NCBI RefSeq assembly: GCF_017357425.1
Contig: NZ_CP014571.1
Coordinates: forward strand, 4,650,001 to 4,714,000
Reading direction: 5' to 3'
DNA length: 64,000 bases
DNA from: Arthrobacter sp. D5-1
GTDB taxonomy: Bacteria > Actinomycetota > Actinomycetes > Actinomycetales > Micrococcaceae
The position numbers were made by a program, and so were the translations under genes. Positions 53,755 through 56,794 of this stretch are shown here, piece by piece (within the stretch, counting starts at the first letter, position 1; the number at the start of each line of letters is the position of its first letter). The notes below the pieces were generated by a model. That model was not told the origin of the DNA, did not search any database, and saw nothing but the letters and a program-made list of their open reading frames with translations.

Positions 53755-55143
53755 CTAGAAGCCGCCGCCGCCAGCGCCTGCATCGCCTGCCATATTGGCA
53801 AAACGCGAGTAGTGGCCCTGGAAAGCAACAACGATGTCCTTGGTGGGACCGTTACGGTGCTTGGCAATGAGGATGTCCGCTTCGCCGGCGCGGGGCGATT
53901 CTTTGTCGTAGACATCTTCACGGTGCAACAGGATGACCATGTCGGCGTCCTGCTCGATGGAGCCGGATTCACGGAGGTCGGACACCATGGGGCGCTTGTC
54001 CTGGCGCTGCTCGGAACCACGGTTCAGCTGTGACAGGGCGATGACGGGAACCTGGAGCTCCTTGGCAAGCAGCTTAAGCGCACGCGAGAACTCGGAAACT
54101 TCCTGCTGGCGGGATTCCACCTTTTTGCCGGAGCTCATGAGCTGGAGGTAGTCGAGAATCACCAGTTTGAGGTCGTGCTGCTGCTTCAGGCGGCGGCACT
54201 TGGCCCGGATCTCCATCAGGGACATGTTGGGGCTGTCATCGATGAACAGCGGAGCATCGTTCATGCGACCCATGGTGGTGGCGATCTTGGACCATTGCTC
54301 GTCCTTGATGGTGCCCTTACGGAGGTCTTGCAGACCAATAGTGGCCTCTGCGGACAGAAGACGCATGGCGATCTCGTTCCGGCCCATTTCCAAGGAGAAC
54401 ATGACTGTAGCCAGGTTGTTCTTGATGGCGGCAGAACGGGCGAAGTCCAGCGCGAACGTGGACTTACCTACGGCAGGACGAGCTGCAATGACGATCATCT
54501 GGCCGGGGTGGAGCCCGTGAGTCAGTTCGTCCAGCTCGTAGAAGCCAGTGGGAACACCGGTCATGCCTTCGCCGCGGTGACCGGAAGCTTCGATCTCGTC
54601 CACGGTGGATTCCATGACGTCCTTCAACGCCACGTAGTCCTCTGCAGTGCGCTTTTCCGCCACAGCGTAGACCTCGGCCTGGGCCTGGTTGACAAGGTCT
54701 TCCACTTCGCCGTCCTGGCCGTAGCCCATCTGGACGATCTTGGTGCCGGCGTTAACAAGGCGGCGAAGGACAGCACGCTCGGCAACAATCTCGGCGTAGT
54801 AGCCAGCGTTTGCCGCGGTGGGCACTGTCTGGATGAGCTCGTGGAGGTAGGCGGGGCCGCCAATCCTGTTGATCTCACCGCGCTTGGTCAGTTCGTCCGA
54901 GACGGTCACGGCGTCGGCCGGCTCGCCACGACCGTAGAGGTCAATGATGGACTCATAGATGGTCTCGTGGGCCGGACGGTAGAAATCATGCCCACGGACG
55001 ATCTCGACGACATCCGCGATCGCATCCTTGGACAGCATCATGCCGCCAAGTACCGACTGTTCTGCAGGGATGTCCTGGGGAGGTTTCCGGCTCGAGTCCG
55101 AAGCGCGTGTGCCCTCGATTGAGTCCAAGTGCGTAACTGACAA
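53755..55143 (-). CDS. dnaB: Replicative DNA helicase DnaB
   Basis: 462 residues. N-terminal primase-interacting domain (PAEQSVLGGMMLSKDAIADV), linker, and RecA-type helicase domain with Walker A AARPAVGKST, IDDSPNMSLMEIRAKCRRLK, LVILDYLQLM, and DLRESGSIEQDADMVILLHR. It unwinds DNA at the fork as a hexamer. The start is TTG with GGAGG six bases upstream, an uncommon start for such a gene. The length is that of an uninterrupted helicase, so there is no intein. The 588-base region upstream carries a cluster of DnaA-box-like sites. Confidence 0.97.
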   Translation of the reverse strand: MSVTHLDSIEGTRASDSSRKPPQDIPAEQSVLGGMMLSKDAIADVVEIVRGHDFYRPAHETIYESIIDLYGRGEPADAVTVSDELTKRGEINRIGGPAYLHELIQTVPTAANAGYYAEIVAERAVLRRLVNAGTKIVQMGYGQDGEVEDLVNQAQAEVYAVAEKRTAEDYVALKDVMESTVDEIEASGHRGEGMTGVPTGFYELDELTHGLHPGQMIVIAARPAVGKSTFALDFARSAAIKNNLATVMFSLEMGRNEIAMRLLSAEATIGLQDLRKGTIKDEQWSKIATTMGRMNDAPLFIDDSPNMSLMEIRAKCRRLKQQHDLKLVILDYLQLMSSGKKVESRQQEVSEFSRALKLLAKELQVPVIALSQLNRGSEQRQDKRPMVSDLRESGSIEQDADMVILLHREDVYDKESPRAGEADILIAKHRNGPTKDIVVAFQGHYSRFANMAGDAGAGGGGF

Positions 55144-55269
55144 AGCCGTCCTCCATTTGTGTACCGCTGCAGAGATTTACTCCCCGGCGGCCCGTAAAGC
55201 GCAGTGTGTGGTGACTAAGTCCGCCGGTGTCTCTGACGATGTCAGGCAGGGCCGACAAAATAGCATTCC

Positions 55270-55706
55270 GTATCCACAAGTTATCCACAGCCGATTCCCC
55301 AAGCCCGCTGCCAATGGTGGTTGGAGCAGCGTCCGGGGAACTCAACAAGGGATATTCGCATCCAAAATGGACACTCCAGACACGTTACAGCAGGCGCCTG
55401 ACACCCCCTGTGGAAAACCTGTGGAATACCAGCCCCTCGTTGTGCACAGACTGTGCGTTACCCTGTGGATAGAGAAATTCTTTTACAGGAAAATAGCGTC
55501 TGACCTGCGGAAACAGTCATCACAAGCTGTGGACTAAAGAAAGATTTGGGGCAATTTCATCCACAGACGCTCCGCCACTCTGAGCCTCATGAAGGGCGGA
55601 AAGCACCCCAAACATGCCGCAAATGTGATGCATCTTACAAACCGGCCCTAAATTTGACACCACCGTCTCAGAAGCCTATGCCGGAAGTGGAATGTGCTGT
55701 GGATAA
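55270..55706. promoter_or_regulatory. Cluster of eight DnaA-box-like sequences
   Basis: The 588-base gap between dnaB and the next gene has no convincing gene. It contains exact DnaA boxes TTATCCACA (55281-55289) and, inverted, TGTGGATAA (55698-55706). One-mismatch boxes are at 55270 (GTATCCACA), 55409 (TGTGGAAAA), 55464 (TGTGGATAG) and 55557 (TCATCCACA); two-mismatch boxes at 55420 and 55528. An A/T-rich run (about 55471-55500) lies among them. This could be a DnaA-titrating or dnaB-regulating site. It is not the usual oriC position, because dnaA and dnaN are absent. Confidence 0.7.
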
Positions 55707-55731
55707 CCAAGTTCTGGCATAAGCTCTAAGC

Positions 55732-56211
55732 ATGGGGATGAACTTTGGTGACGTGTTGACGCTTGCCCTTCCGCTTCTAGTCCTCGTTGGCCTGTTGTGG
55801 GCACTCACGGCGGCCTTCAAACCGCGTGATACCGGCGTCTCGGACGCGGAGAGGTATCAACGTGAACTGGCAGCCCGTTCGGCTGCGCACCAAGCGTCCC
55901 AAGTGCAGGAGGCGCTGGCCCTGCGCGCCCGGATTGAAGCCACCACCAAGCCGAGCCAGAATGAGGCAAGCCACCGGGAACAGGCGGAGAACACCAGGTC
56001 CGCTATTCAGGCCCAGGCCGCCCGTTCACACGCTGCCGGCCAGACCGGACACCAGCCTGCCGTCCTTCCCAATGGCCAACTGAACCCGCAGCTGGCGCTC
56101 GAGCTCCAAAACCTGGTCCGCAGCGGCAAGAAAATCGAGGCCATCAAGGTTCTGCGCCAAGCCACCCACTCGGACCTGCTTACCGCCAAGAACTACGTAG
56201 ATCGGCTCTGA
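55732..56211 (+). CDS. Membrane-anchored protein with L7/L12 C-terminal-like motif
   Basis: 159 residues: an N-terminal membrane helix (VLTLALPLLVLVGLLWALTA), a charged helical linker (YQRELAARSAAHQASQVQEA), and a C-terminal segment LVRSGKKIEAIKVLRQATHS plus LLTAKNYVDRL that resembles the KIxVIKxVRxxTxLxLxEAKxxVD pattern of the ribosomal L7/L12 C-terminal domain. L7/L12 itself recruits translation factors; what this domain does on a membrane anchor is unknown. TAAGCT six bases before the ATG indicates a leaderless start. The partner gene follows after seven bases. Confidence 0.75.
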   Translation: MGMNFGDVLTLALPLLVLVGLLWALTAAFKPRDTGVSDAERYQRELAARSAAHQASQVQEALALRARIEATTKPSQNEASHREQAENTRSAIQAQAARSHAAGQTGHQPAVLPNGQLNPQLALELQNLVRSGKKIEAIKVLRQATHSDLLTAKNYVDRL

Positions 56212-56218
56212 CAACGCC

Positions 56219-56794
56219 ATGGATTCCATCCTCATCCCGCTCCTGATCCTCATTGCGGTCATTGCGGGCGTGCTCCTGCTCATTCGCTCTTTCACCAAGC
56301 GTTCTGCTGAAACCTCAGCGGATGTGGCAGCCGCGAACGCCCCGAAGGATCCCGTCGAGCTAGCCAGGGAATCTGCCGCCAAGCTCAACCAGGAGCAGCA
56401 CCGCCAGCTCTACTCCCTGATCGCCCGCGGACAGGGCATGGCAGCGATCAAGCTCTACTTACAGGCCACTGGCGAAGGCCTGCGTGCCTCGCGTGAAGCG
56501 GTTGGCGCCTTGGCTGCCCACCCGCAGCCTTTCACGCCGGAGCCGGCCGCCAAGGACCTGCTGGCTGAGGACGATGACGAGCCCGAGCGCTTTCCTTACC
56601 GTTACAGGGCGATCGTCAGCAAAGGCGAGGTGACGCGGGAAGTGAGCAGCAACATGCTCAACGATGAGATCTACGGACGAATCCGGACGCTCGCCAAAAG
56701 TGGAGATGTTGAGGGCGCAGCCATAGCGTTGACGCGCCACTCAGACATCACCATCAAACAAGCCCGCGAGTTTATTGAGCTGTTGGACGACTAG
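56219..56794 (+). CDS. Membrane-anchored protein with two L7/L12-CTD-like segments
   Basis: 191 residues: an N-terminal helix (LIPLLILIAVIAGVLLLIRS), then QLYSLIARGQGMAAIKLYLQ with ATGEGLRASREAV, an acidic middle (LAEDDDEPERFPYRYRAIVS), and a second copy at the end, RIRTLAKSGDVEGAAIALTR with SDITIKQAREFIELL. Both copies share the short helix-turn-helix L7/L12-CTD-like pattern of the upstream gene. There is no ribosome site; the seven-base gap suggests translational coupling. Family function unknown. Confidence 0.72.
   Translation: MDSILIPLLILIAVIAGVLLLIRSFTKRSAETSADVAAANAPKDPVELARESAAKLNQEQHRQLYSLIARGQGMAAIKLYLQATGEGLRASREAVGALAAHPQPFTPEPAAKDLLAEDDDEPERFPYRYRAIVSKGEVTREVSSNMLNDEIYGRIRTLAKSGDVEGAAIALTRHSDITIKQAREFIELLDD

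Follow-up and report, generated by a model that had tools for sequence, protein, structure and literature searches.

Five DnaA sites have been mapped in Mycobacterium tuberculosis, and M. smegmatis has regions homologous to them (Hicks et al. 2020, PMC7738170). Binding of DnaA upstream of dnaB was revealed by IDAP-seq in M. tuberculosis and by ChIP-seq in the homologous region of M. smegmatis. In the M. tuberculosis dnaA I282T mutant, the altered protein binds less upstream of dnaB and the mutant under-expresses dnaB (PMC7738170). The mycobacterial site, in the Rv0057 region, where DnaA is bound and less binding is accompanied by less dnaB expression, is one of the closest known counterparts of the locus described here. 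The passages of PMC7738170 dealing with it do not describe the anatomy of its boxes, their spacing from a promoter or how widely the site is conserved; the two loci are likened by description, not by sequence. The DnaA regulon of Caulobacter crescentus includes dnaB, for which DnaA boxes are predicted (Hottes 2005, cited in PMC8203912). Here the likeness lies in the predicted upstream boxes, whereas the organism belongs to another phylum and the relevant passages of PMC8203912 describe no phased array; the same source names nrdAB of E. coli as an example of a DnaA-regulated promoter. The mycobacterial data (PMC7738170) and the Caulobacter regulon (PMC8203912) thus make an action of DnaA on dnaB partly known. 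A phased array of boxes at dnaB was not found described in the literature searched, including the relevant passages of PMC7738170, PMC8203912, PMC3411110, PMC4285127 and PMC6478999. What is known is that DnaA can act on dnaB; what is new here is a class-wide array spaced from the dnaB promoter.

At nrdAB of E. coli, transcription is influenced by DnaA boxes close to the promoter; the present locus shares the promoter-near boxes and differs in the target gene. We know of no class-wide phased array at DnaA-regulated promoters of the nrdAB type. The datA and DARS sites of E. coli are likewise clusters of DnaA boxes outside oriC, but they are not dnaB promoters and need IHF or Fis. Among the actinomycetes, the DnaA-box clusters H69, H24 and D78 of Streptomyces coelicolor reportedly lie near oriC and have been interpreted as serving titration or the control of initiation; an oriC-near DnaA cluster in this organism is said to lower the initiation frequency. 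They resemble the present locus as oriC-near actinomycete clusters but are not known to have been interpreted as dnaB promoter elements; one of the three may correspond to the cluster at dnaB.

The region upstream of dnaB in Arthrobacter sp. D5-1

The window, i.e. the whole 64-kb stretch of DNA analysed, covers C1:4650001-4714000 of a 4,738,058-bp contig (C1) in a genome of 5.12 Mb. The best named match to its dnaB is that of Arthrobacter sp. AZCC_0090, with 98% identity. The gene starts with TTG, preceded by the Shine-Dalgarno sequence GGAGG at 55154..55150, and both are conserved in an alignment of the window with eight near relatives. Since dnaA is located at C1:47660-49081 and is followed by a dnaN-like ORF (dnaN named by eye), both genes are absent from the window, as the original prediction had stated; if C1 is circular, the box cluster lies about 82 kb from dnaA-dnaN/oriC. 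A box was defined as a site with at most one mismatch to TTRTCCACA, i.e. to TTATCCACA or TTGTCCACA. The features are listed below, with gaps in bp to the predicted -10 hexamer.

53755..55143, minus strand: dnaB, replicative DNA helicase (Pfam DnaB, E 6e-36; DnaB_C, E 5e-108)
55144..55731, no strand: intergenic region with the DnaA-box array, the proposed control region
55270..55289, plus strand: tandem boxes GTATCCACA and TTATCCACA with an 11-bp pitch, in the predicted dnaB 5' leader at about +86 to +105
55382..55387, minus strand: predicted dnaB -10, TAACGT, the conserved TARCGT-like hexamer from which gaps are counted
55409..55417, minus strand: box TTTTCCACA, gap 21, extending into the -35 position
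55420..55428, minus strand: weak box TATTCCACA with two mismatches, gap 32
55440..55448, plus strand: box TTGTGCACA, identical in nine of nine aligned sequences, window included
55441..55449, minus strand: weak box CTGTGCACA with two mismatches, overlapping TTGTGCACA, gap 53
55464..55472, minus strand: box CTATCCACA, gap 76, core TCCACA identical in nine of nine
55528..55536, minus strand: box TAGTCCACA, gap 140, core TCCACA identical in nine of nine
55557..55565, plus strand: box TCATCCACA, gap 169, identical in nine of nine
55698..55706, minus strand: perfect box TTATCCACA, gap 310, the box of the array farthest from dnaB, close to where the divergent gene starts
55732..56211, plus strand: divergent ORF of 159 aa without a Pfam match, outside the proposed mechanism

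The 588 bp upstream of dnaB contain eight boxes, compared with a mean of 0.29 and a maximum of three in 2000 shuffles of the region. Two of them are perfect copies of TTATCCACA on opposite strands (55281-55289, plus; 55698-55706, minus). Positions 55270-55706 hold two perfect and four one-mismatch TTATCCACA sites, six of the 13 such sites in the window, where 5.15 were expected and none of 100 shuffles reached 13. Elsewhere on the chromosome, 15 stretches of 20 kb were sampled (300 kb, coding and intergenic DNA taken together), and none of their 450-bp windows contained more than three boxes. Across the 5.12 Mb of the genome, perfect TTATCCACA occurs 42 times and the reversed pattern three times; the corresponding numbers of one-mismatch sites are 1587 and 826. 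Two perfect copies within 600 bp are found at only four places, namely C1:38.9 kb, 49.1 kb (dnaA-dnaN), 67.4-68.0 kb and the dnaB array. The cluster is real and its density is far above chance, and DnaA boxes in excess of chance near the dnaB promoter are a mark of a DnaA-regulated promoter. Eight DnaA-box-like sites within about 440 bases, with one perfect box on each strand, had been predicted and are indeed present; the A/T-rich patch predicted among them exists but is mild, with a local GC minimum of 43% at 55450-55549 compared with 55-57% on the dnaB side.

When the window is aligned with eight near relatives, the intergenic DNA is seen to have mostly diverged, with the box cores remaining as unchanged islands. 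Also kept among them is a -10-like TARCGT-like hexamer, which would place the start of dnaB transcription in the window near 55375. Measured from TAACGT (55387..55382), the dnaB-strand boxes of the window lie at 21, 32, 53, 76, 140 and 310 bp; 21, 32 and 53 are near the register of the relatives (those at 32 and 53 being weak, with two mismatches) and 76 is less so. A consensus promoter scan of the window found no promoter. TAACGT matches TATAAT at only three of six positions, CAGGGG makes a poor -35 hexamer, and the window fails the strict promoter test described below. Because of the poor -35 and the first box reaching into it, the dnaB promoter of the window may need DnaA more than those of its relatives do, or another promoter may be used.

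On the far side of the array, a promoter-like sequence seen by eye, TTGACA-17-TATGCC at 55654-55682, is directed at the divergent ORF at 55732, although the consensus promoter scan missed it; the perfect box at 55698-55706 lies just downstream of its expected start. A Pfam search gave no match to either of the adjacent small ORFs (55732-56211 and 56219-56794); judged by eye, their C-terminal ends are similar to one another and to the L7/L12 C-terminal domain.

Conservation of the boxes and their spacing from the predicted dnaB promoter

Upstream DNA was compared at 218 loci: 80 named ones, 50 from genomes of the family and 88 from genomes that represent 34 other families of the class. The family set represents 50 of the 61 genomes with a dnaB match, the 11 others being those whose match was in two pieces or ranked low, and the class set represents 88 other-family genomes out of 148 (two belonged to the own family and four had no match). 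Outside the class, 64 of 119 phylum genomes were used. The named and the other sets share no identical 200-bp upstream end but may overlap in species; contig ends truncate some flanks, and others start within a gene at a partial match, both of which would tend to lose boxes. Within 700 bp upstream of dnaB, box density was 9.17 per kb in the family genomes, 6.22 in the named loci and 4.37 in the other families, compared with 0.12, 0.22 and 0.16 per kb, respectively, at -1500 to -700 and with 0.63, 0.39 and 0.47 for the reversed pattern. At least three boxes within 700 bp were present at 71 of the 80 named loci, in 48 of 50 family genomes and in 56 of 88 other-family genomes; at least two were present in 72 of these 88. 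Counted by family, two or more boxes occur in some genome of 24 of the 34 other families, and three or more in some genome of 19. Recurrence of boxes upstream of dnaB in related genomes, on which the original prediction depended, thus extends across the class. Outside it the signal is weaker (1.12 vs 0.12 boxes per kb in 64 genomes, with at least three boxes in five and none in 35). Nine in-class loci lack a box within 700 bp (L048, L051, L059, L060, L062, G042, G082, G068 and G167). Two of these are from Nesterenkonia (L051, L059), and both have three same-strand boxes about 2.8 kb upstream of dnaB; in L059, other genes intervene.

The divergent neighbour of the array varies, being MatE in L033 and L072 and the ORF without a Pfam match in the window. 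Pfam searches with ten candidate upstream ORFs from other genomes named three, the two MatE proteins and, in L012, a glucose dehydrogenase at a distance of about 1.6 kb; since the ORFs were chosen mechanically, the seven unmatched ones say little.

The nearest dnaB-strand box lies 21 bp from the hexamer in the window, 31 bp in L001 and L003, and 42 bp in L004, L005, L010, G009 and G039, while G026 and G054 repeat the gaps 21 and 31; these near-relative gaps differ by about one helical turn. When 12 Streptomyces and 10 Microbacteriaceae loci were each aligned as a group, most though not all rows had a box a few bp upstream of a TTGnnn-like -35, followed after about 17 bp by TANCGT. With TANNNT alone as the reference at the 218 loci, box gaps pile up at 30-31, 42-43, 53-54, 63-64 and 74 on the dnaB strand and at 28-29 and 73 on the opposite strand; one of eight control hexamers, GANCTT, also piled up, with 14 at gap 73. 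In a shift test, boxes were moved at random within each of the 138 family and other-family loci (35 families, 1000 shifts). Families with a box numbered 11 of 35 at +53/54, 10 of 35 at +42/43, eight at +63/64 and seven at +30/31, counts that were never reached in the same bin, and five at -28/29 on the opposite strand, a count reached once. As the shifts, over all bins, gave at most nine families in a bin, only +42/43 and +53/54 stand alone after the choice of bin; +63/64, +30/31 and the opposite-strand class are not above this largest chance bin. R(10.5) was 0.43 compared with at most 0.349 in the shifts, and the best period over families was 11.1. A -35 TTG emerged unselected (T 130, T 107, G 104 of 143), the selection having used only TANNNT and the box gaps.

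A strict promoter was then defined as TTGnnn, 16-18 bp and TAnnnT. Such promoters are directed toward dnaB at 145 sites in 143 of the 218 loci and away from it at 42 sites. Same-strand boxes 15-90 bp before the strict -10 occur only at 30-32, 42-43, 53-54, 63-65, 73-75 and 85-89. With accepted gaps of 20-22, 30-32, 41-43, 52-54, 62-64 and 73-75 on the same strand and 28-29 on the opposite strand, 136 of 218 loci have a box at an accepted gap, whereas none does when the gaps are moved by 5 bp. Within the 138 family and other-family loci, a 10.6-bp ladder accommodates 111 of 127 gaps against an expected fraction of 0.30; 16 of the 127 miss a ladder of 10.5-10.6 bp, and gaps of 87-89 fit poorly. 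A strict promoter is absent from 75 of the 218 loci, window included. In the family and other-family set the combination of strict promoter and box occurs in 12 of 35 families, 11 of them with same-strand boxes, and is absent from 23. The opposite-strand boxes are clustered at gap 28-29 but form no significant periodic series (Rayleigh p 0.077). Because the gap classes were already known when the strict test was set up, most weight is carried by the shift test and the unselected -35. Relatedness makes the genomes of one family dependent on each other, a caveat on all these counts. The position of the boxes relative to the promoter is conserved in relatives, a further mark of a DnaA-regulated promoter.

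Other DnaA-box sites in the genome and in relatives

Several other sites rich in DnaA boxes were seen on C1. A cluster of 14 boxes at C1:67353-68037 (L087:3354-4038) lies between ppiA- and rhomboid-like genes, identified by eye, and crgA (C1:71218-71463); the dnaA-dnaN gap has five boxes compared with these 14. Contexts of the rhomboid-like gene, which has a match in 58 of 61 family and 133 of 148 class genomes, were examined at 58 distinct loci (L243-L300) among those listed. Within 1.5 kb downstream, at least four boxes occur at 30 of 30 family loci and at least three at 14 of 28 other-family loci. These 58 loci contain only 10 promoter-like sites, both directions counted, and six box gaps without a pile-up. 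For crgA (L301-L330) and dnaA (L331-L360), 30 loci each were taken among the 141 and 144 genomes with a match. Up to 300 bp downstream of crgA, at least one box is found at 26 of 30 class loci and at least two at 23, two loci giving no crgA reading; in Arthrobacter sp. D5-1 other genes intervene and this 300-bp stretch has no box. We take crgA to be Rv0011c. By its position next to crgA, this cluster may correspond to the mycobacterial Rv0010c-Rv0011c DnaA site, which according to PMC7738170 lacks an obvious counterpart in other species.

At C1:38847-39232 (L086:2848-3233) there are seven boxes, all on one strand, in a stretch of about 5.5 kb on the far side of a gene that by eye is parB-like. 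The only ORF of at least 130 aa in this stretch is one of 130 aa that looks spurious, and some short ORFs run through parS-like sequence (by eye); an Rfam search of C1:36000-51000 gave no match. Upstream of dnaA, an opposite-strand box 26-28 bp before the -10 of a TTG-type promoter was observed in 16 pairs over 30 loci (23 promoters), a gap close to the 28-29 class at dnaB. Same-strand boxes at dnaA occur at gap 15 in three cases, and no same-strand ladder was found at the 30 loci. At 154 kb and at 1.38, 2.54, 3.04, 3.27 and 4.05 Mb, C1 has six matches of identical score, each a 411-aa open frame with weak likeness to the DnaA ATPase family; it is probably a multi-copy insertion element.

Probable control of dnaB by DnaA

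The cluster is probably the control region of the dnaB promoter, where DnaA binds the upstream boxes and directly controls, most likely activates, dnaB. Control by DnaA is supported by the boxes following dnaB across the class and by their helix-turn spacing from promoter-like sequences; that DnaA also switches on dnaB is suggested by the boxes lying about one helix turn apart from the likely start signal. We infer that DnaA binds the region in Arthrobacter sp. D5-1, that the predicted promoter is used and that the sign is activation. In the proposed mechanism, DnaA would bind boxes upstream of the dnaB -35/-10, about whole helical turns away, and, held on a fixed face of the helix, would contact or recruit RNA polymerase at the dnaB promoter. 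Helicase supply would thereby be coupled to the active initiator. More speculatively, the two tandem leader boxes (+86 to +105) might hold back dnaB transcription at high DnaA.

The original prediction had offered two roles for a DnaA-responsive locus tied to the helicase gene, control or titration. It withstood two of its own refuting conditions, box density (compared with shuffles and with the 300 kb of sampled chromosome) and conservation in relatives. The class-wide boxes and the helix-turn promoter spacing support control; titration may be an additional effect. That the array is essentially a titration or reset site, similar to datA or D78, which binds DnaA soon after oriC is copied and has dnaB as a mere neighbour, seems possible but rather doubtful. 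An array of eight boxes that, on a circular contig, would lie about 82 kb from oriC suits such a site, as does the initiation-lowering cluster described for S. coelicolor; but a sink needs no spacing from the dnaB promoter, and the rhomboid-side cluster has none. Moreover, the array stays with dnaB despite the differing divergent neighbours, MatE in two loci and an ORF without a Pfam match in the window. Unlikely, in our judgement, is the opposite sign of regulation, in which DnaA acts as an autoregulatory brake and, when abundant, blocks RNA polymerase from boxes on and near the promoter and within the leader. DnaA does repress some promoters, its own gene's included, according to passages of PMC8203912, and in the window the predicted leader contains two boxes and the nearest box extends to where the -35 should be. 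Yet at loci with a strict promoter the counted boxes are upstream of the -35, off the core, and in M. tuberculosis reduced DnaA binding accompanies reduced dnaB expression, as told in PMC7738170.

The number of boxes is like that of oriC and the A/T-rich stretch, though mild, is there, but we regard a second replication origin or a helicase-loading site as highly improbable: the dnaA-dnaN gap has its own boxes, the lowest local GC is only 43%, and promoter spacing would not be expected. Identity with oriC itself was rejected on the same GC value and the distance of about 82 kb from dnaA-dnaN. Chance or composition was likewise rejected and can practically be dismissed, because the shuffles (maximum three compared with eight), the reversed-pattern controls and the class-wide conservation all argue against it. 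Direct control of dnaB by DnaA is the reading retained here, with helical phasing as its simple prediction.

Whether this extends further is, in our view, evenly balanced: across much of the Actinomycetes, DnaA would be a direct, helix-phased activator of dnaB whose boxes slide by about whole turns and which, together with the box at the dnaA promoter and the crgA-side site, would form an oriC-proximal DnaA network that includes the mycobacterial 'cryptic' site. The isolated mycobacterial observation of DnaA at dnaB would thus gain an evolutionary and mechanistic frame. If true, the replication initiator would directly set the supply of helicase in a class to which antibiotic producers and major pathogens belong.
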